Of a DNA stretch of 64,000 bases, positions 565-11,886 are shown piece after piece. The stretch is from assembly GCF_002201515.1 (NCBI RefSeq), contig NZ_CP021421.1:1054001-1118000 (forward strand). Reading direction: 5' to 3'. A program made the position numbers and the translations under genes. Source of the stretch: Muribaculum intestinale. Its GTDB lineage: Bacteria; Bacteroidota; Bacteroidia; Bacteroidales; Muribaculaceae. The notes beneath the pieces were generated by a model. It had not been told where the DNA came from and searched no databases. It worked only from the letters and a program-made list of their open reading frames with translations. Positions within the stretch are counted from its first letter, which is position 1, and each line of letters starts with the position of its first letter.

Positions 565-2169
565 TCAGTCGATTTCCGATATTGAGTTTTCCGACAGTTT
601 TGCCGAAGCCTCGTCGTCGGTGATGCCAAAACATCTTGTCACCGCGCGGCGTATACTGTCGGCCTCCGGAGAGTCCTCCTTCAGGATTTCGATTATCGCG
701 GCCACATACGCATCATGATTTTTCAGCCCGCACAGCTCGGCCACATTGCTCTGCCCTACCATCGACTTCTGGTTGTACACCCTGAGTATCGACTGATAGT
801 CGCCCCCTTCGGCATACCCCCGGAAATCGCGCACAAGCCCGTTGTATATGTCGCGCGGACGCAGGGCATTGACCAGATCGGCCATATGCTGCTCAAGTTT
901 GTCAATCGACGGGAATCGCCCGTCGATACGGTATTCCACCATACGTTTCACCCGGTGGCGTGTATGCATGAGCGCCTGCTGCTTGAGCTCGCCGCGAAAC
1001 ATGTTTATCACCGACTTGCGCACACGGTCAAACACTCGGTCGTCATTGCGGTGGAAATGCCGTGCCACGGCCCTTACCACATCCTCAAGCATCAGTATAT
1101 TTTCAATCTCAGCCACATCTGGCACGAAGATACGCTTCTTGCGCAGATAAGCCACCTCATGGGCGTCGCGACGGTCACGGTCGACTATGCCGTGGCTGTC
1201 GAGATGGTGGAATGAATTCAGGTCGTTGAACGTGCGAGTGGCCTCTATCACCTTGTTGCAACTACCCAGCGAGCGCACCGTATAGTTGGTAAACACCAGC
1301 GGATAGAGCTTGGCATCGATGCTGTGGGTGCCGTCGCCCTCGATAAACAGCACCGGCTTGCGCGCGCCTACTATAGTAGTATATATCTCGTCGTCAAGAG
1401 GAGTCCCGGCGGGCAGCACGGCATAGTCCCAGCGCTGGGCCTCGGCGTCATACCCGCGCACCCATATCACATCGGGGCGCACGCGCGATGTCATAAACTC
1501 CACGTCGTGGGTTGTGTATACCCACGTGCATTCGGGGCGCAACGACTCTACCTTGTCCCATATCATGCCCATCACCGACGGGTGGAGGAACATCCCCGGA
1601 CTGTCTACAAACATCACGGCATCCTCCGGAGCAAGTACTGCGGCACCGAACGTATAAAGCACAGCCTTCTCTCCGTCCGACAGACGCATCTGCGAGTAAG
1701 CGCTGTCATCCTCCTTGCGGCTGAACAGCAGACGTCCGCTCTCCCTGAGAATACGGCTGTCGGGAAACACCTCCTGCCAAGCGCTGATCACACGGTCAAG
1801 ACACGTAGGCTCCATCCGGCCTCCCGAATGCTTGTGCAAAAGCAGGTGCAACACCTCATCGAGCAGCAGCAGAGCCATCACACGCTCAAACTGGGTATGG
1901 TGGTCGCTGCGCATAAATGGCGAACGCTCTGTGGCCGCCTCATAAAGCACGTCGACCGATCCTTCCAGAGTGTCGGTGCTGTCAGCACGATACAGCGCGT
2001 TAAGAGCCGAGATACGGAACACCGGCATGCTCATGCCGGTCTCCTCGACAAGACGCTCGGTAAACCGGGTCTTACCCGAACCGTTTGCTCCTATTATTAT
2101 AATGCGCCGGGAGTCATCGTCGATAACCTCGCGCGTAGAGTCAAGCTGTGGCGGAAGCGTGAGTTTCAT
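565..2169 (-). CDS. AAA ATPase fused to a DUF4435 (TOPRIM-like) domain
   Basis: 534 residues in two parts. Residues 1-265 form an ABC/OLD-type ATPase: Walker A GANGSGKT at 27-34, signature-like LSDGEK at 163-168, Walker B region ending in V-D-S-P at 188-191, and switch-like T-T-H-D at 219-222. Residues about 270-440 match DUF4435: F-I-E-G-D-G with E277, then V-D-R-D-R with D330 and D332, and an E-I-E motif at 354-356, the acidic set expected of a TOPRIM metal site. The glutamate that normally follows the Walker B aspartate is replaced by S190. ATPase plus DUF4435/TOPRIM is the architecture of OLD-like and PARIS (AriA/AriB) phage-defence proteins; a defence role is an inference, because no restriction system or other defence gene is adjacent. 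It could also be a housekeeping nucleic-acid ATPase of Bacteroidales. Confidence 0.8.
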   Translation of the reverse strand: MKLTLPPQLDSTREVIDDDSRRIIIIGANGSGKTRFTERLVEETGMSMPVFRISALNALYRADSTDTLEGSVDVLYEAATERSPFMRSDHHTQFERVMALLLLDEVLHLLLHKHSGGRMEPTCLDRVISAWQEVFPDSRILRESGRLLFSRKEDDSAYSQMRLSDGEKAVLYTFGAAVLAPEDAVMFVDSPGMFLHPSVMGMIWDKVESLRPECTWVYTTHDVEFMTSRVRPDVIWVRGYDAEAQRWDYAVLPAGTPLDDEIYTTIVGARKPVLFIEGDGTHSIDAKLYPLVFTNYTVRSLGSCNKVIEATRTFNDLNSFHHLDSHGIVDRDRRDAHEVAYLRKKRIFVPDVAEIENILMLEDVVRAVARHFHRNDDRVFDRVRKSVINMFRGELKQQALMHTRHRVKRMVEYRIDGRFPSIDKLEQHMADLVNALRPRDIYNGLVRDFRGYAEGGDYQSILRVYNQKSMVGQSNVAELCGLKNHDAYVAAIIEILKEDSPEADSIRRAVTRCFGITDDEASAKLSENSISEID

Positions 2170-2384: not shown

Positions 2385-2975
2385 TTAATACCCCGAAAAT
2401 GGCAGATGGACATTATTCCATCCTATTGCAATGGCAAACAGAGCAATTATACCGCCAAAGAATGCCAATATACCACCGACACAAAATGCCCATGTAATCA
2501 TTACCCATTTCCTGTGCCACGATTTATCCATTTTTTCAAACTTCTTGTAATATTTCAGATAATTATCATTTGTAAATACAGCCCTATAAGCCGGAATATA
2601 ACATAACCAAATAGGCACCACCAACATGACAATAAGTAAAACAGGATTTATATATTCAAATACTCTAATGTATATTCCATTAAGCAAAAATGATATGAAA
2701 ATAGAATACCCTCCATAAAAAAATCCAAAGTTATCATTAGCAAATAGAATATGGAAACCTCTTTTTTTATTATTAAAATATCCATATGTTTCCTTCTCAC
2801 GATTTGCTATATGTATATCCAATCGTTCCTGTTTTTTGGGAGAAAGAAATAGTACTCCAAAAAACAATAGGAATCTACCTATCACCTTATCAATAACAAG
2901 CTGTAATCTTCTACTCCCTCGCCAAATGCAGTAATGCACTGCATTAAGGAAATATGCAAATCTATCACCTCTCAT
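2385..2975 (-). CDS. Array membrane protein, subtype A, copy 1 (last in transcription order)
   Basis: 196 residues with no recognised family. It opens with R-F-A-Y-F-L-N-A-V-H-Y-C-I-W-R-G, a signature shared by all five intact copies (R-F-x-Y-F-L-N-x-x-H-Y-C-I-W). Predicted membrane spans lie near residues 85-105, 109-130 and 158-185, with a possible fourth near 32-46; there is no signal peptide. Subtype A markers are W-R-G at 18-20, the E-K-E-T-Y-x-Y-F segment near 60 and G-F-H-I near 73. The last 45 residues are almost identical to those of the copy at 4825-5409, while the N-terminal halves differ much more, which points to gene conversion. The start matches the paralogs. AT-rich composition contrasts with the flanking genes. 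Function unknown. Confidence 0.75.
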   Translation of the reverse strand: MRGDRFAYFLNAVHYCIWRGSRRLQLVIDKVIGRFLLFFGVLFLSPKKQERLDIHIANREKETYGYFNNKKRGFHILFANDNFGFFYGGYSIFISFLLNGIYIRVFEYINPVLLIVMLVVPIWLCYIPAYRAVFTNDNYLKYYKKFEKMDKSWHRKWVMITWAFCVGGILAFFGGIIALFAIAIGWNNVHLPFSGY

Positions 2976-2994
2976 AGCTCCATTTCACATTTAA

Positions 2995-3585
2995 TCAATG
3001 CCCCAGGATTGGGAAACGAAAATTCTCCAAGCCGATCATTATATCAAATAATATCGCCACTCCGAATATGACAATAGCAAATCCTCCAAAACAGAATACA
3101 ATCGTTATTCTCTTCCACTTCTTATGCCATTTCTTTCCTTTTGTTTCGAATTCTTTGAAATACTTCAAGTAACGGTTATCGGCAAACACAGCCTTATAAG
3201 CTGGAATATAACATATTACAATAGTGACAAGTAGAGTCGTCATGGCTATCACATGATTTACCGCACCATAATTTTTATATATCAGTCCCAATATCACAAA
3301 AGATAGAAAACCGGGGTAACACGAATAAATGTAGTCGAACTTATACTTAGCCCACCCGATATAAAGCCCCTTCTTTTTATCATACTTAAACTCATATAGT
3401 TGCTGTTCACGCATTGCCAAATAAGCATAAAGTCTCTCCTGACAATTCCTTGAACACATATACCTGGCAAAAAGACGAATACTGCCAAAGACCAGTTTAT
3501 GCATAAAATTACTGTAGCTAATAGCATGAAGCCAAATGCAATAATGCATTACATTCAGAAAATATGCAAATCTATCACCTCTCAT
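2995..3585 (-). CDS. Array membrane protein, subtype B, copy 2
   Basis: 196 residues, unrecognised family, start aligned with the paralogs. It carries the common N-terminal signature but with W-L-H in place of W-R-G. Subtype B markers are C-S-R-N-C-Q-E-R-L-Y-A-Y near 44-55, A-M-R-E-Q-Q near 57-62 and S-C-Y-P-x-F-L-S-F near 88-96. Hydrophobic segments occur near 90-105, 112-128 and 160-185. The C-terminus ends in E-N-F-R-F-P-I-L-G-H. It lies 19 bases upstream of subtype A copy 1 in transcription order, so the pair is probably co-transcribed. A second frame inside the gene at 3294-3527 is a shadow. Function unknown; an inner-membrane protein of an accessory, AT-rich island. Confidence 0.75.
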   Translation of the reverse strand: MRGDRFAYFLNVMHYCIWLHAISYSNFMHKLVFGSIRLFARYMCSRNCQERLYAYLAMREQQLYEFKYDKKKGLYIGWAKYKFDYIYSCYPGFLSFVILGLIYKNYGAVNHVIAMTTLLVTIVICYIPAYKAVFADNRYLKYFKEFETKGKKWHKKWKRITIVFCFGGFAIVIFGVAILFDIMIGLENFRFPILGH

Positions 3586-3641
3586 AGTGTTCTATTTTAC
3601 TCTTAGAATCTGTATCATCTGAATTTAAACAGTTTCTTAAA

Positions 3642-4241
3642 TCAATGCGGCAGGAATGGTAAATCTATGTTATTGTATCCACCAACTACAATAGCCATCA
3701 TTGTAATTATCCCGAAAATTTCGATTACTATCCCTCCGACACAGAATATCCATGTTATTAATGTCCATTTTTTATGCCATCTATTATCCTCCTTCTCAAA
3801 CTGCTTGAAATACTTCAAGTAACGGCTATCGGTAAACACAGCCTTATAGGCTGGAATATAACTCACCACTATCGGAATTATTGATATGATAATAAATAAC
3901 GTCGGATTAATGACTGCCACAAAATTTCTAAGCAGGATGCCTGCAATCAGAAATGACAGAAAAACTGAATAACATAAATAAAACATACCAAATCTATGAT
4001 GTGCCCATCTTATATGAAAACCACTTTTCTTATTATAAAAATAATCATGTGTTTCCTTCTCATGATTTGCCAAATGGGCACACAGACGTCCTTTATACTT
4101 CTTGGTAAGAAATAGCGTGGCAAAAACCAACAGGAATCCTCCTATCACTTTATAAAGCACATGTCCTACCCTTATATCTCCTCGCCAAATGCAATAATGC
4201 ATTACATTCAGAAAATATGCAAATCGATTGTTATCTATCAT
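3642..4241 (-). CDS. Array membrane protein, subtype A, copy 3
   Basis: 199 residues from the preferred ATG at 4241. An in-frame ATG three codons further upstream (4250) exists, but the paralogs begin M-x-(G/D/E)-D-R-F, which aligns with the 4241 start (M-I-D-N-N-R-F). It shows the subtype A features W-R-G-D-I-R-V, N-H-E-K-E-T-x-D-Y-F-Y-N-K-K and G-F-H-I, and three membrane spans near residues 90-108, 115-133 and 165-190. The C-terminus ends G-Y-N-N-I-D-L-P-F-L-P-H. The next gene upstream stops about 15 bases away, so the array is tightly packed. No function can be assigned. Confidence 0.72.
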   Translation of the reverse strand: MIDNNRFAYFLNVMHYCIWRGDIRVGHVLYKVIGGFLLVFATLFLTKKYKGRLCAHLANHEKETHDYFYNKKSGFHIRWAHHRFGMFYLCYSVFLSFLIAGILLRNFVAVINPTLFIIISIIPIVVSYIPAYKAVFTDSRYLKYFKQFEKEDNRWHKKWTLITWIFCVGGIVIEIFGIITMMAIVVGGYNNIDLPFLPH

Positions 4242-4256
4242 ATCATACATGACCGG

Positions 4257-4814
4257 TTACCACAATAGAATAGCCCATGCAGCAGCTATAGACAATAAAG
4301 AAATCAGGACTCCCCCAATACAGAACGCAGTGGTGATTCTCGCCCATTTACGATGCCAAGCCCTATTCTCTTTCTCAAATTCCTTGAAATATTCAAGGTA
4401 GCGATTATTTGAAAAGACTGCTTTATAGACCGGAATATATCCCAAACCAATTGGCCCAGCAAGAGTGCCAATCATTACGATTGGAGTAATATCTCCATTG
4501 ATTTTAAGTATCAACCCAAACATGAGGAATGACAGGAAACACGGATAACACGAATAAACGTAGCCGAACTCATACTTCGACAACCCTATATAAACCCCGT
4601 TCTTTTTATCATGCTTAAACTCATATATTTGCTGTTCACGCATTGCCATATAAGCATAAAGTCTCTCCTGACAATTCCTTGAACACATATACTTGGCAAA
4701 AAGACGTATACTGCCAAAGACCAGTTTATGAATAAAATTGCCAATCCATATCTCATGAAGCCAAATGCAGTAATGCACTGCATTCAGGAAATATGCAAAT
4801 CTATCCTCAACCAT
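4257..4814 (-). CDS. Array membrane protein, subtype B, copy 4 (shorter C-terminus)
   Basis: 185 residues. Subtype B throughout: W-L-H at 18-20, the C-S-R-N-C-Q-E-R-L-Y-A-Y block, A-M-R-E-Q-Q and S-C-Y-P-C-F-L-S-F. It ends early at A-W-A-I-L-L-W, lacking the roughly ten-residue polar tail (G-L-E-N-x-R-F-P) seen in copy 2 and in the broken copy at 5427-5572. Three hydrophobic segments are predicted. Whether the early stop matters is unknown. It is separated from subtype A copy 5 by only 10 bases, supporting one polycistronic transcript running leftward. Confidence 0.73.
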   Translation of the reverse strand: MVEDRFAYFLNAVHYCIWLHEIWIGNFIHKLVFGSIRLFAKYMCSRNCQERLYAYMAMREQQIYEFKHDKKNGVYIGLSKYEFGYVYSCYPCFLSFLMFGLILKINGDITPIVMIGTLAGPIGLGYIPVYKAVFSNNRYLEYFKEFEKENRAWHRKWARITTAFCIGGVLISLLSIAAAWAILLW

Positions 4815-4824
4815 AATCTATATG

Positions 4825-5409
4825 CTACAAAAAAGGCAGATGGACATTACTCCATCCTATCGCGATAGCGAACAAAGCAATTATACCTCCAAAGAATGCC
4901 AATATACCACCGACACAAAATGCCCATGTAATCATTACCCATTTTCTGTGCCACGATTTATCCATTTTTTCAAATTCCTTGAAATATTTCAGATAACGAT
5001 CATCGGAAAAGACCACTTTATTGGCAGGAATGTAGAACAACCAAATAGGAGATATTAATATTATACCAAATATTATAGGACTAATCAGTCCAAACACTCT
5101 AAACAATATTCCTTCCAATAAAAATGATATGCAAGCTGAATAACATAAATAAAAAACAATTACCCGATAATGCGCCCAATTAATATGAAATCCGGTTTTC
5201 TTATTATAGAAATAATCATATGTTTCCTTTTCATGATTTACTACATGAGCATACAAGCGAGCCTTGTATTTCTTCGAAAGAAAGATTGTTACAAAAACCA
5301 ACAGGAATCCTCCCATAATTTTATCAAAGAAAAGGCGTACCCTTATATCTCCTCGCCAAATACAGTAATGCACCGCATTAAGGAAATATTCGAATCTATC
5401 ATCTCTCAT
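4825..5409 (-). CDS. Array membrane protein, subtype A, copy 5 (first intact gene)
   Basis: 194 residues. Subtype A: W-R-G-D-I-R-V, N-H-E-K-E-T-Y-D-Y-F-Y-N-K-K, G-F-H-I. Residues 150-190 (starting M-D-K-S-W-H-R-K-W-V-M) are nearly identical to copy 1, whereas the N-terminal half is closer to copy 3, so this gene looks like a mosaic. Hydrophobic segments near 88-107, 110-130 and 158-185. It is the most upstream intact member; immediately before it lies the remnant of a subtype B gene. Function unknown. Confidence 0.73.
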   Translation of the reverse strand: MRDDRFEYFLNAVHYCIWRGDIRVRLFFDKIMGGFLLVFVTIFLSKKYKARLYAHVVNHEKETYDYFYNKKTGFHINWAHYRVIVFYLCYSACISFLLEGILFRVFGLISPIIFGIILISPIWLFYIPANKVVFSDDRYLKYFKEFEKMDKSWHRKWVMITWAFCVGGILAFFGGIIALFAIAIGWSNVHLPFL

Positions 5410-5426
5410 AGCTACATTTTATGCTT

Positions 5427-5572
5427 AATCAATGCCTCGGGAATGGAAAACGAATATTCTCCAATCCAATCATTATTCTCAACAGTGAGGCTATACCACA
5501 TAGGTATAGCATAATACCTCCGATACATAATACCCAGGGTATTCTCTTCCTCAAACTCCTTAGAGCATGTTT
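5427..5572 (-). pseudogene. Remnant of a sixth array gene, subtype B, C-terminal piece only
   Basis: Read on the minus strand, the sequence encodes K-E-F-E-E-E-N, then after a frame change and loss of about eight codons K-R-I-P-W-V-L-C-I-G-G, then G-L-E-N-I-R-F-P-F-P-R-H and a stop. These match the region from K-E-F-E-K-E-N through F-C-x-G-G to G-L-E-N-F-R-F-P-I-L-G-H of subtype B copy 2. Everything upstream of K-E-F-E is missing. The break falls directly at a TTAGAGCATGTTTA sequence (5570-5583 on the plus strand) that resembles the ends of the element at 31274-31622. It is therefore a gene truncated at an insertion-element-like border and then frame-damaged. Confidence 0.7.
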
Positions 5573-5583
5573 AAAATATTTAA
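5570..5583. repeat. Solo insertion-element-like end
   Basis: TTAGAGCATGTTTA differs at one base from the TTAGAGCTTGTTTA sequence near 513-526 and resembles the GAGCTTGTTT termini of the MITE at 31274-31622. It marks exactly where homology of the broken sixth array gene ends. The preceding TTAG fits the YTAR-type target of IS5-like elements. A lone end with no transposase; assignment is tentative. Confidence 0.4.
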
Positions 5584-5606
5584 GATATAATCCCTTTCAT
5601 AATTAA

Positions 5607-5871: not shown

Positions 5872-8028
5872 ATGAAGGTTTACAAGACAAGCGAAATCAA
5901 AAACATAGCCTTGCTTGGTAGCAAAGGCTCCGGTAAAACCACACTCGCCGAAGCGATGCTTTACGAGTGTGGAGTTATAAAACGTCGCGGCAATGTCGAG
6001 TCAGGCAACACCGTCAGCGACTATTTCCCGGTGGAGAAAGAGTATGGCTACTCAGTATTCTCTACCATTTTTTACGCCGAATTCCTTGGCAAGAAACTCA
6101 ATGTAATCGACTGTCCGGGCGCCGACGACTTCGTAGGAAACGCCATCACAGCCCTTAACGTAACAGATACCGGCGTCATCCTCATCGACGCGCAGTATGG
6201 CGTGGAAGTAGGCACCCAGAATATTTTCCGCACCACGGCTTCCCTGAAAAAGCCGGTTATATTCGCCCTCAACCAGCTCGACGGCGAAAAAGCCGATTAC
6301 GACAATGTAATCGAGCAGATGACCGAAATCTTCGGCCCAAAAGTAACACCTATACAATACCCCATCAACGTCGGCCCGGGCTTCAACGCCATGATTGACG
6401 TGCTACTAATGAAAAAATACTCCTGGGGCCCCGACGGCGGAGTTCCCACTATTGAGGAAATACCGGCCGAAGAACACGATCGCGCCCGGGAGCTGCACCA
6501 GAAACTCGTCGAGGCTGCCGCCGAAAACGACGAGACCCTGATGGAAAAATTCTTCGATCAGGGCCACCTCACCGAGGACGAGATGCGCGAAGGCATCCGC
6601 AAAGGCCTCGTCGACCGCTCAATCTTCCCCGTATTCTGCGTAAGCGCCCTCAAGGACATGGGCGTACGCCGTATGATGGAATTCCTCGGCAACGTAGTGC
6701 CCTTTGTTGAGGATATGCCCGCGCCGGTCGACACCGAAGGCGAAGAGGTAAAACCCGACTCCGACGGTCCCCTCTCCCTGTTCATGTTCAAGACCACCAT
6801 CGAGCCACATATCGGCGAAGTCAGCTACTTCAAGGTAATGAGCGGCACACTCACCCCGGGTGTCGACCTCACCAACGTTGACCGCGGCTCAAAAGAACGC
6901 ATCGCACAGGTGTTCTGCGTATGCGGCCAGATTAAGACTCCCGTCGACAAACTTTGTGCCGGAGATATCGGCGCCACCGTAAAACTGAAAGACGCCCGCA
7001 CCGGAAACACCCTTGACGAAAAGGGTTGTGAGTACCGTTTCGACTTCATAAAGTATCCCGCGCCCAAATATCAGCGCGCCGTACGTCCCGTCACCGAGGC
7101 CGACGCCGAGAAACTCTCGGAAATCCTCACCCGCATGCATGAAGAAGACCCGACATGGGAAGTGCAGCAGTCAAAAGAGCTCAAGCAGACCATACTCTCG
7201 GGCCAGGGTGAATTCCACCTGCGCACACTCAAATGGCGCGTCGAAAACAACGACAAGCTCCCCATCATATTCGAAGAGCCGCGCATACCGTATCGCGAGA
7301 CTATCACGAAAGCCGCACGTGCCGACTACCGTCACAAGAAACAGTCGGGTGGCGCCGGACAGTTCGGCGAGGTTCACCTGATCATCGAGCCATACACCGA
7401 AGGAATGCCAGCGCCCGACACCTACAAGTTCGGCAACCAGGAGTTTAAGATGAACGTGCGCGACACTCAGGAGATACCCCTCGAATGGGGCGGCAAGCTG
7501 GTGGTGTGCAATTGTATCGTCGGCGGAGCCATCGACGCACGCTTTATCCCCGCAATCGTAAAGGGACTCATGGATCGCATGGAACAGGGCCCGCTCACAG
7601 GCAGCTATGCCCGCGACGTGCGCGTATGCATCTACGACGGCAAGATGCATCCCGTCGACTCCAACGAAATATCATTCCGACTGGCCGGACGCAACGCATT
7701 CTCCGAGGCTTTCCGCAACGCCAATCCCAAGATTCTTGAACCGGTATACGATGTCGACGTATTCGTTCCAGCCGATGTCATGGGCGACGTGATGAGCGAC
7801 CTTCAGGGACGCCGTGCCATAATCATGGGTATGGCCAGCGAAAACGGATTCGAGAAAATCTCCGCTCGTGTGCCCCTCAAAGAGATGTCATCCTACTCTA
7901 CCGCACTTAGCTCTATCACAGGTGGCCGCTCTTCATTTACCATGAAGTTCAGCTCCTATGAGCTCGTGCCTTCCGACGTTCAGGAAAAACTCCTCAAGGC
8001 ATATGCCGAGTCGCAGTCTGAAGAATAA
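5872..8028 (+). CDS. fusA2: Elongation factor G paralog EF-G2 with degenerate GTPase motifs
   Basis: 718 residues with the five-domain layout of EF-G. The P-loop G-S-K-G-S-G-K-T (16-23) is kept, but other G-domain motifs are altered: switch I, normally R-G-I-T, reads Y-G-Y-S (58-61); G3, normally D-T-P-G-H, reads D-C-P-G-A (80-84), losing the catalytic histidine; G4 reads N-Q-L-D (134-137). This pattern fits the Bacteroides EF-G2 paralog, reported to support translocation without GTP hydrolysis and to be needed for gut colonisation. Domains II to V follow, with domain IV around residues 470-600. It stands alone on the plus strand after a long leader and ends at a hairpin terminator (8071-8105), so it is monocistronic. 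The canonical EF-G must lie elsewhere. A tetracycline-resistance ribosomal protection protein is the alternative, but the degenerate motifs argue against it. Confidence 0.88.
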   Translation: MKVYKTSEIKNIALLGSKGSGKTTLAEAMLYECGVIKRRGNVESGNTVSDYFPVEKEYGYSVFSTIFYAEFLGKKLNVIDCPGADDFVGNAITALNVTDTGVILIDAQYGVEVGTQNIFRTTASLKKPVIFALNQLDGEKADYDNVIEQMTEIFGPKVTPIQYPINVGPGFNAMIDVLLMKKYSWGPDGGVPTIEEIPAEEHDRARELHQKLVEAAAENDETLMEKFFDQGHLTEDEMREGIRKGLVDRSIFPVFCVSALKDMGVRRMMEFLGNVVPFVEDMPAPVDTEGEEVKPDSDGPLSLFMFKTTIEPHIGEVSYFKVMSGTLTPGVDLTNVDRGSKERIAQVFCVCGQIKTPVDKLCAGDIGATVKLKDARTGNTLDEKGCEYRFDFIKYPAPKYQRAVRPVTEADAEKLSEILTRMHEEDPTWEVQQSKELKQTILSGQGEFHLRTLKWRVENNDKLPIIFEEPRIPYRETITKAARADYRHKKQSGGAGQFGEVHLIIEPYTEGMPAPDTYKFGNQEFKMNVRDTQEIPLEWGGKLVVCNCIVGGAIDARFIPAIVKGLMDRMEQGPLTGSYARDVRVCIYDGKMHPVDSNEISFRLAGRNAFSEAFRNANPKILEPVYDVDVFVPADVMGDVMSDLQGRRAIIMGMASENGFEKISARVPLKEMSSYSTALSSITGGRSSFTMKFSSYELVPSDVQEKLLKAYAESQSEE

Positions 8029-9271: not shown

Positions 9272-10078
9272 ATGGCTACACATACACCTAAAGAAGTTAT
9301 CGACAAAGTAGCGGGCATCGGCGCGGCCAAGGCCGACCTCAGCTCAGGCCGCAACGGCACTTACGCCCGCTTCGCTCTCCTTACCATACTCGCCGGCGTA
9401 TATATCGCTTTCGGAGGAGTGCTATCAGTGATTCTCGGATTCGGATTCCCCGAAATCACAGCCGCAAACCCCGCCATGCAGAAGTTGCTGAGCGGTGCCG
9501 CGTTCCCCATAGGACTCATACTCGTGGTAGTGCTCGGTGCCGAACTGTTTACAGGCAACAACGCCATGCTCATGCCCTCATGGCTCATGAAGCGCTGCTC
9601 GGCGTGGGACATAATTGTAAACTGGACACTCGTCTATCTCGGCAACTTTGTCGGCGCTCTCCTTTTCGTGTATATGCTCGTATACCTTACCGGACTGCTA
9701 AGCCCCGAGCCCTACCATTCATCCATAATCGCTGTGGCGCAGGCCAAAGTATCGCTCCCCTGGCTCACCGCATTCCTACGAGGCATAGGTGCCAACTGGT
9801 GCGTATGCCTTGCCATATGGCTCGCCCTGTCCGCCAAAAGCTCCGGCGCGAAGATGTTCGGATGCTGGCTCCCGGTAATGGCTTTTGTAGTCCTCGGCTA
9901 CGAGCACTCTATCGCCAACATGTTCTTCATACCCGCGGCAATGCTTGAAGGAGCCGGAATCACCGTCTCTCAGATGATTGTCGACAACCTCATCCCCGTC
10001 ACCCTCGGCAATATTATCGGGGGAGCGCTGTTTGTGGGCTGTGTCCACGCCTATCTGCATCTCGACCACAAGAAATGA
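9272..10078 (+). CDS. Formate/nitrite transporter (FNT) family channel
   Basis: 268 residues with six predicted membrane spans and the FNT signatures: G-A-E-L-F-T-G-N-N-A near residue 89 and G-A-N-W-C-V-C-L-A near 172. The central-pore histidine is in G-Y-E-H-S-I-A-N-M-F near 210. It moves formate, nitrite or related monovalent anions across the inner membrane; which one cannot be told from sequence. The start 15 bases after argF' and the 4-base overlap with the next gene place it in the middle of a three-gene unit. Formate export would fit an anaerobic fermenter. The symbol focA is plausible but not certain. Confidence 0.88.
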   Translation: MATHTPKEVIDKVAGIGAAKADLSSGRNGTYARFALLTILAGVYIAFGGVLSVILGFGFPEITAANPAMQKLLSGAAFPIGLILVVVLGAELFTGNNAMLMPSWLMKRCSAWDIIVNWTLVYLGNFVGALLFVYMLVYLTGLLSPEPYHSSIIAVAQAKVSLPWLTAFLRGIGANWCVCLAIWLALSAKSSGAKMFGCWLPVMAFVVLGYEHSIANMFFIPAAMLEGAGITVSQMIVDNLIPVTLGNIIGGALFVGCVHAYLHLDHKK

Positions 10079-11886
10079 TGAAACCAATCCTGTCACGGCT
10101 GTTTCCGGCCGACATGTGGCGCGGACGCCTGTCTGTGCTCGTTGTCGCCGCGTTCCTCAAGCTCATCCTGTTCGACGTAGTGTGGTGCACAGGCACCACA
10201 TTCCGCGCCATGTCCGACATAGGCCTCTACCTCAACTCCCTGCTCGGGGCGCTCCTGCTGGTGCTCCCTTATATGGTGTCGCGCAGGTTCTGGATAGCCG
10301 TGACTGTACTGTTCCTGGCCGACGGCGTGCTCGTGGCCAATCTGATGTATTGCCGCACATATTTCACGGCTATACCCCTCGACAGCTATCTTCTCGCCGG
10401 AAATCTCTCCGACTTCACCGCAAGCGTGGCCGACTCGATGCGATGGCTCGACATACTGATTCCGCTTACCACAGTTGCGGCCTGGATAATCGGACGTCGC
10501 ATGCCGCGACGCTTCCCGCCACGGTCTACACTGCGCTACCTTGTCTGCCTCGCGGTCGCAGCGCTCCTCGCTGCCATAGCGGCCATGTGCCGCGGCGGAT
10601 TCCGTGCCCATTATTCGCGCCTGCAGGAGTCTTGCTACTACACCACATGCACCACACCGATATATACCGTAGGCGGCTCGGTCATGTACGATATCCTGAG
10701 CGGCAATTCACGCGCGCTCGACGAAGCCGGCCGCGCGCGCATCGACTCATGGATGGAGCAAAAAGAAAGACACCGCCCCCACCGCGCTCTCCCCGACTCC
10801 ATCGGCGTCCGCGACAACCTGGTGATTATACTGTGCGAATCGCTCGAAAGCTGGGTTATCGACCGCAAGGTCGACGGAGTGGAGATTACCCCCGTGCTCG
10901 ACTCTCTCATCGCCGACACCGCATCCACTCTCTATGCGCCCAACGTGCTGACTCAAGTCGCCGCCGGACGCTCAATCGACTGCCAGCTCCTCGTCAATGC
11001 CGGCATGCTGCCGATGCAGTCGAGCGTATATTCGATGCGCTATCCCCAGAACCGCTACTACACCCTCAACCGGGCCCTCGCTGAAAAAAACGGTGCACGC
11101 TCCTACATACTCACATGCGACAAGCCTATCGTGTGGAATCAGGAACCGATTGCTCGGGCATTCGGCATCGACACCCTCCTCACACGGTCATCCTGGCGCA
11201 ACGACGAGCTCGTTGGCAACCCCGCCAAACTGAGCGACGGCTCATTCATGCACCAGGCTGTAGAGAAAATGCAGGCCGGAGAAATATGGCCCGTCGGGGA
11301 AAACGCATTCCTACAGTTTGTGACATACTCCGGACACAACCCATTCCGACTCCCTGAGAATCTGCGCACGGTGACATTCTCCGACCGCTTCCCGGAGCGC
11401 ATGCGCGACTATATGATGATGGCACATTACACCGACAGTGCCATCGGCACCCTGCTATCATATCTGCGCTCGCGTCCCGACTACGACCGCACACTGATAG
11501 TGATTACAGGCGACCACGAAGGGCTCGCAATGGATCGAGCAGCCATTCTCGACAATCCCGACGCACGGGAAATAGTGTCGCCTGGACAATACACCCCGCT
11601 GATTGTAGTCAACTCCCCGGTAGGGGGACGATACGACGCCGTTCTCGGACAGGCCGACATATACCCCACCCTGCTCAACCTCATGCAACTCGACTCATAC
11701 CGGTGGAAAGGGATGGGCAACAGTATCCTCGACCCCTCCAAGGCCCCGTTTGCAATAAGTTCCATGACAGGCGAACTCGTCGGCGACACTACCGCAGTAT
11801 CTCCCGAAGCGCTCTCCAACATTCGCTCGGCCCGAGCCATATCCGACCTCATTATCTCCACCGACGCATTTGCCATCATGCCCTGA
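10075..11886 (+). CDS. LtaS-like membrane sulfatase-fold phosphotransferase
   Basis: 603 residues. About five transmembrane spans in residues 20-175 are followed by an extracytoplasmic alkaline-phosphatase/sulfatase fold, the layout of lipoteichoic acid synthases and phosphoethanolamine or phosphoglycerol transferases. Metal-site residues are visible: E255 in C-E-S-L-E-S-W, the catalytic nucleophile position S300 in A-G-R-S-I-D-C-Q, H421 in Y-S-G-H-N-P-F, and D480-H481 in T-G-D-H-E-G. Gram-positive LtaS uses threonine at the nucleophile position; serine here is conservative. As a Gram-negative, this organism has no lipoteichoic acid, so transfer of a phospho-headgroup to glycolipid, LPS or capsule is more likely. 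The ATG overlaps the stop of the channel gene, so translation is probably coupled. Confidence 0.8.
   Translation: MMKPILSRLFPADMWRGRLSVLVVAAFLKLILFDVVWCTGTTFRAMSDIGLYLNSLLGALLLVLPYMVSRRFWIAVTVLFLADGVLVANLMYCRTYFTAIPLDSYLLAGNLSDFTASVADSMRWLDILIPLTTVAAWIIGRRMPRRFPPRSTLRYLVCLAVAALLAAIAAMCRGGFRAHYSRLQESCYYTTCTTPIYTVGGSVMYDILSGNSRALDEAGRARIDSWMEQKERHRPHRALPDSIGVRDNLVIILCESLESWVIDRKVDGVEITPVLDSLIADTASTLYAPNVLTQVAAGRSIDCQLLVNAGMLPMQSSVYSMRYPQNRYYTLNRALAEKNGARSYILTCDKPIVWNQEPIARAFGIDTLLTRSSWRNDELVGNPAKLSDGSFMHQAVEKMQAGEIWPVGENAFLQFVTYSGHNPFRLPENLRTVTFSDRFPERMRDYMMMAHYTDSAIGTLLSYLRSRPDYDRTLIVITGDHEGLAMDRAAILDNPDAREIVSPGQYTPLIVVNSPVGGRYDAVLGQADIYPTLLNLMQLDSYRWKGMGNSILDPSKAPFAISSMTGELVGDTTAVSPEALSNIRSARAISDLIISTDAFAIMP

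Follow-up and report, generated by a model that had tools for sequence, protein, structure and literature searches.

A tandem array of mosaic membrane-protein genes in Muribaculum intestinale, a probable orphan polyimmunity locus against RHS toxins

The analyzed stretch of DNA, hereafter the window, comprised 64,000 nt of the Muribaculum intestinale genome (GCF_002201515.1, one contig of 3.3 Mb; positions 1,054,001 to 1,118,000 of NZ_CP021421.1), in which a tandem array of genes of one family was located at C1:1056385-1059572 (Table 1). Five intact open reading frames (ORFs), all co-oriented, encoded proteins of 185-202 aa that shared pairwise identities of 41-67%, and the gaps between these ORFs, 5' to 3', were 10, 6, 56 and 19 nt. 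An earlier reading made from the DNA letters only (the sequence-only reading) had counted six tandem genes. Five were found intact, while the sixth was a decayed remnant that matched positions 139-184 of the family profile (E 0.0013); a longer match was also found, with two stops inside. The subtype of the remnant, in the sense described below, cannot be told, because the subtype-defining part is absent from it. A search of the genome with gene 3 at E 0.01 returned the six places of the array and no others. The block was AT-rich, as had been claimed, with a G+C content of 0.351 against a mean of 0.550 for sampled 3188-nt stretches of the window (sd 0.023, minimum 0.498), and the lowest-G+C stretch of that length in the window started at 2501.

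Table 1. Features of the array and its flanks (positions within the window)
Feature	Position	Strand	Description
Gene 1	4825..5409	-	194 aa, WRG-type N module; polytopic membrane protein, predicted immunity protein
Gene 2	4257..4814	-	185 aa, WLH-type; counterpart M1 in L023
Gene 3	3642..4250	-	202 aa, WRG-type; counterpart M2 in L023
Gene 4	2995..3585	-	196 aa, WLH-type
Gene 5	2385..2975	-	196 aa, WRG-type
Sixth-gene 3' remnant	5432..5596	-	55-codon open frame, stops upstream, decayed
Gene 3 variable N module, residues 22-80	4011..4187	-	exchangeable cassette defining WRG / WLH
Gene 3 conserved block, residues 130-170	3741..3863	-	contains YIPAYKAVF, YLKYFKQFEKED, WHKKW
AriAB-like DUF4435/AAA gene	565-2169	-	array flank
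EF-G2	5872-8028	+	array flank

None of the five genes scored above the curated cut-offs of Pfam and NCBIfam, and the family had no name in Pfam, NCBIfam, PADLOC or PHROG, in agreement with its earlier description as unrecognized. An alignment of 100 family proteins (A2) was built from the five window genes and 95 of the 127 proteins found; among its members, the Pfam models SpoIIM and DUF4184 matched one protein each at E 0.001 or better. The few names given to the homologues listed (120 of 127 and 120 of 149) were 'hypothetical protein', except for one 'amino acid transporter' and one 'membrane protein YidH (DUF202 family)'. P0037, a 156-aa protein from a contig of 1433 nt, carried a HisG Pfam domain and matched 37% of gene 3 with 100% identity; it is perhaps an assembly chimera or a rearrangement. 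No description of the family was found in the literature searched, which is not proof of absence. The distribution was patchy: with the genome under study counted each time, the A2 surveys recorded these genes in 16 of 397 genomes at the level of the bacterial family and in 6 of 393 at that of the order. We take this to be an undescribed membrane-protein family of Bacteroidales.

The AlphaFold2 model of gene 3, computed with A2, was all helical (mean pLDDT 88.2, pTM 0.79), with helices at residues 9-47, 50-62, 64-72, 78-110, 116-152 and 156-189. Family-averaged hydropathy peaked at 96-114, 114-132 and 169-187, and in gene 3 additionally at 31-49; the stretches 48-77 and 133-158 were polar and of net positive charge. 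Based on the model helices, the hydropathy peaks and the polar stretches, four membrane segments are predicted, the first of them weak, and both polar stretches would be cytoplasmic. A Foldseek search with the model returned nothing from the PDB at E 0.001 or better.

The genes fell into two types over the first ~100 residues, in the order WRG-WLH-WRG-WLH-WRG (B and A types, respectively). The two alternating subtypes of the sequence-only reading were thus real in this part. However, the subtype blocks were limited to approximately residues 18-100, the rest of the protein did not track A or B, and the order alone was not significant, because three B and two A genes can be arranged in 10 ways, one of which is the alternating one. 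Nor were the blocks fixed, as the E-K-E-T-Y block occurred in only two of the three WRG genes, the third reading EKETH. When A2 was clustered by single linkage at 50% identity, residues 24-77 gave 15 clusters and residues 84-185 gave one, so that A and B were seen to be two of ~15 variants of one N-terminal module. Of the 4950 protein pairs in A2, 204 combined a C-part identity of 80% or more with an N-part identity of 40% or less, and 14 combined an N-part identity of 80% or more with a C-part identity of 60% or less, which indicated that the modules move independently.

The same discordance was recorded within the array and beyond it. Genes 2 and 4, both WLH, shared 81% identity in residues 22-80, 29% in 101-129 and 25% in 171-202, and genes 1 and 5 had nearly alike C-terminal parts (93% in residues 171-202). 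Gene 4 was 100% identical to P0018 (Muribaculaceae Isolate-100 EEL42_09100) in residues 22-80 and 42% identical in 171-202, while P0002 and P0017 shared 20% and 91% identity in these respective parts. Silent-site divergence (dS) jumped between the modules: for gene 1 and M3 of L023, a Muribaculum metagenome-assembled genome (MAG) and the nearest relative, it was 0.03 in codons 22-80, 0.66 in 81-130 and 0.63 in 131-170, and for genes 2 and 4 it was 0.21 in codons 22-80 against 1.50 in 81-130. Given such jumps, the divergence of the WLH pair outside its N module and the order A-B-B at the same site in L023, the proposal that an ancestral A-B pair was duplicated as a unit at least twice found no support. 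Elsewhere, the N modules of two family genes in G004 were identical, and L024 and L064 each contained three that were mutually unlike. Trees of 36 of the 100 A2 rows (unrooted, drawn midpoint rooted) separated the WRG and WLH types into supported groups for the N module; for the C part, the two WLH genes split, gene 4 joining the WRG genes and gene 2 standing elsewhere on a long branch. The earlier expectation of separate A and B clades was borne out in the N module only. Judged from these comparisons of sequence, the N-terminal module recombines among paralogues of the family.

Further, the surroundings of family genes were inspected in other genomes. The 28 family loci counted came from the A2 surveys, from L025 and from the toxin searches (G660:C82 and G004:C345, with family matches too weak or short, were left out), and 26 of them had a readable 5' flank (G044:C23 and G421:C107 start at a contig end). 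In 12 of the 26 readable loci, the gene directly upstream of a family gene ended in one and the same glycine-zipper toxin tail or was a fragment of it; in one of the 12, L070 (G339), an ORF at 9780-10961 that resembles a transposase by eye separates the RHS toxin from its three family genes. In L024 (a Muribaculum MAG) and L025 (Prevotella sp. HJM029) the family genes overlapped the 3' ends of RHS genes, whose cores matched TIGR03696 (E 7e-20 and 5e-18). Of the 12 loci, nine upstream genes were tested and seven contained an RHS core above the curated cut-off; the core of L134 was below it, and none was found in L083 by NCBIfam. For 13 toxin-family pairs, with start codons chosen mechanically, the stop-to-start distance was an overlap of 1-43 nt in seven, 6-32 nt in three, 166 and 189 nt in two and 2031 nt in one, the pair interrupted by the transposase-like ORF. 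A single family gene stood behind the toxin, in the stretch read, in L025, L081, L083, L134, L135, L136 and L071 (a toxin fragment).

A reverse search was performed with a toxin-tail profile of nine rows (A3). Outside A3, five places were found at E 1e-9 or better (G430, G229:C81, G631, G108:C68 and G161); four had a family gene at most 25 nt downstream, and the contig of the fifth ended 148 nt past the toxin. The divergence of toxins and that of the adjoining family proteins were correlated over 12 pairs (Mantel r 0.59, p 0.0002; L071 was omitted, its toxin being a 77-aa fragment). This linkage supported the earlier suggestion of an immunity set. Some other features of these loci were also observed. 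L134 (G631:C1:1278000-1286000) contained a row of ORFs in which the RHS core ends were nearly alike and the tails differed, and which looked like a toxin cassette array. Two tyrosine-recombinase-like ORFs (by eye) lay just upstream of the RHS-immunity pair at L025 5314-7855, and similar ORFs, also by eye, occurred near family genes in L064 and L068.

Three long RHS proteins carried RHS and FG-GAP repeats, with SpvB in two and TcdB_toxin_midN in one (Pfam), and the N-termini of several RHS proteins resembled Sec signal peptides by eye. The last 90 residues of the tails (77 in L071) were 19-31% glycine. In all 13 tails, small-xxx-small-xxx-small patterns outnumbered those of composition shuffles, of which a share of at most 0.044 reached the observed level, and hydropathy peaks lay near the C-terminus in 12 of the 13. 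Taken together, the glycine patterns and the hydropathy peaks suggest that the tail may be a membrane-inserting hairpin.

The arrangement of RHS toxin-immunity pairs, in which the immunity gene lies directly 3' of the toxin on the same strand, was found in relatives and not in the window. The statement that no toxin gene adjoins the array was correct, and the toxin-tail profile had no match anywhere in the genome, whose single RHS core (G000:C1:182253-182447, L085) carried another tail; the ORF next door to that core was lipase-like by eye. The flanking AriAB-like gene encoded a single-gene AAA/DUF4435 protein with a PADLOC AriAB match of E 2.7e-83; AriAB is the PARIS system. At the same site and with the same neighbours, L023 contained three intact family genes. 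In G013 the site was empty, with the AriAB-like gene and EF-G2 242 nt apart, and family genes lay behind a toxin on another contig of 4 kb. At this one site the gene number thus ranged from none (G013) through three (L023) to five plus a remnant (the genome under study). Among the 13 other genomes of the genus, the AriAB-like gene stood beside EF-G2 in two (one with and one without the array), ten had neither in the stretch read and one was unreadable. The array locus was probably gained horizontally between the two flanking genes. The ratio of non-synonymous to synonymous substitution (dN/dS) against L023 was 0.58 for gene 2 and 0.47 for gene 3 when all codons were counted; with the first 21 codons set aside, each gene gave 0.71 (15 and 11 changes). 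These values revealed neither clear constraint nor positive selection.

Based on these results, we proposed, with a probability of about 0.8, that the array is an orphan, homogeneous polyimmunity locus. In this reading, the product of each gene is a helical immunity protein of the inner membrane that belongs to the undescribed Bacteroidales family, and its cognate toxin is a glycine-zipper tail at the C-terminus of an RHS protein. The following course of toxicity and protection, with its mechanism, is what we infer. The RHS proteins may leave the cell via a Sec signal peptide (seen by eye), after which the tail would insert in the membrane of the target and depolarize it, and each immunity protein would bind its cognate tail within the membrane and block it. 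The variable modules at ~22-80 and 101-129 would set which tail is recognized, and the conserved blocks would double as common scaffold and crossover points. The locus is probably kept because it protects against competitors that bear the toxins. Since G004 and G013, of the same genus, carry this kind of toxin, the array would help against such relatives if they meet in one gut.

Pfam has models for SUKH, Imm6, Imm11, Imm28, Imm33, Imm36 and Imm41. As no Pfam match was obtained, the family was judged to be none of these, which PMC3482391 names among the families that form homogeneous polyimmunity loci. The kind of locus is already known, and the predicted immunity family is new. Homogeneous polyimmunity loci are toxin-free tandems of co-oriented, closely spaced paralogues of one immunity family, whose number varies between relatives (Zhang et al. 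2012, PMC3482391). The array agreed with this description: it was a tandem of paralogues of one family, immune in nature as far as the linkage indicates, all on the minus strand with gaps of 6-56 nt and no toxin in between, and both the number and the type of genes varied between close relatives. The family had one locus in the genome and, unlike the known loci, consisted of a membrane protein.

Other known systems resembled the array in part. In gut Bacteroidales, the acquired interbacterial defence (AID) clusters and their recombinase-associated form (rAID) are likewise co-oriented arrays of orphan immunity genes, each 100-300 codons long (PMC12247911). However, the genome had 36 matches to PF00589 (tyrosine recombinase) at E 0.001 or better, and the nearest lay more than 160 kb from the array, which is therefore not an rAID cluster as defined in that paper. 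RHS repeats and Rhs regions are mentioned there among Bacteroidales type VI effectors, and the family toxins may have a type VI link. The Vibrio cholerae orphan arrays are also rows of effector-less immunity genes shaped by transfer and recombination, but they sit in type VI clusters (PMC5361080; likened by description). In S. aureus, the paralogues of EsaG strings recombine through conserved blocks, as is known for TipC too, and TsaI strings, with 2-16 genes each, encode polytopic membrane immunity against a membrane-depolarizing toxin; little recombination is reported for tsaI, whereas here the membrane family is the mosaic one (PMC9484751; likened by description). The ionophore toxins of contact-dependent inhibition (CDI) are polymorphic membrane toxins with highly divergent, specific cognate CdiI immunity, but are delivered by CdiA and have another toxin domain (PMC11630599). 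Tse5, an Rhs protein (PMC10684867), resembles the proposed toxins in that its C-terminal product forms membrane pores and a cognate immunity protein, Tsi5, exists, and differs in being a Pseudomonas type VI effector (PMC9637101; likened by description).

Several observations weighed against the polyimmunity proposal. No cognate is known for any of the five genes, because no toxin adjoins the array, and constraint on the array is not clearly shown, because a dN/dS of 0.71 was obtained on few changes. All nine rows of A3 came from loci where the family gene was already known, the family match was weak at two places of the reverse search (G229, E 7e-5; G631, E 1e-3), and shared descent, too, would lead one to expect the Mantel correlation. 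A toxin tail was missing from 14 of the 26 readable loci, and the A3 searches gave no tail match in their genomes, most of which are incomplete assemblies; four of these loci (genus g17) and others are divergent and may have another function. In G364 the RHS frames were broken and the family genes short (113, 127 and 169 aa). Misbinning is conceivable for the 4-kb toxin contig of G013, a MAG of 82% completeness. The pore reading of the tail draws on its glycine-rich patterns and hydropathy, read from the sequence.

An unlikely alternative is that the array is a relic, the toxin having been acquired alongside and since lost, so that the genes are now unselected and decaying. The decayed sixth gene lies at the 5' end, where the toxin would have stood, the array is AT-rich, and the dN/dS values are near neutral; yet five of the six genes keep open frames, three intact genes are found at the site in L023, and the changes are too few to separate weak constraint from none. 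It is rather improbable that A and B make up a single membrane complex, for immunity or sensing, as subunits that are both needed and therefore alternate, although ExiC and ExiD of Staphylococcus provide a real precedent: these polytopic proteins confer protection from the glycine-zipper toxin EsxX only as a pair, and orphan copies of them exist as well (PMC12744356). The alternation over five genes and the neighbouring locus tags of the WRG-type EEL42_09095 and the WLH-type EEL42_09100 in Muribaculaceae Isolate-100 agree with such a pair. However, A and B are paralogues of one family, their alternation has a chance of 1 in 10, L023 reads A-B-B, the two N modules of G004 are identical and the three of L024 and of L064 are mutually unlike, and the single family gene behind the toxin at seven loci disfavoured the two interacting subunits that had been suggested. 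That the array and the AriAB-like gene form one anti-phage system is hardly to be expected. The two adjoin on the same strand and their neighbours are identical in L023, but G013 has the AriAB-like gene without the array, and tblastn of that gene against 28 stretches with family genes elsewhere returned L023 only.

If the array is a polyimmunity locus as proposed, its feature of greatest interest is mosaic membrane immunity. It is possible, though we consider it doubtful, that the array acts as a diversity generator, from which a cell could assemble immunity to toxin variants it never carried: the conserved blocks ~5-21, 84-100 and 130-170 would serve as crossover points, and a specificity cassette at 22-80, and separately 101-129, would move between paralogues and strains within the helical membrane fold that had no PDB match. 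A likely function is given to a membrane-protein family that was nameless in four libraries. The finding also suggests that Muribaculaceae and other Bacteroidales possess a class of RHS membrane toxins, and it supplies the toxin tails to go with the family. If true, this would be a membrane immunity family that does recombine, unlike TsaI, for which little recombination is reported (PMC9484751). If the variable module sets specificity, the natural shuffling would provide ready-made chimeras for studying how membrane immunity recognizes a membrane-inserted toxin.

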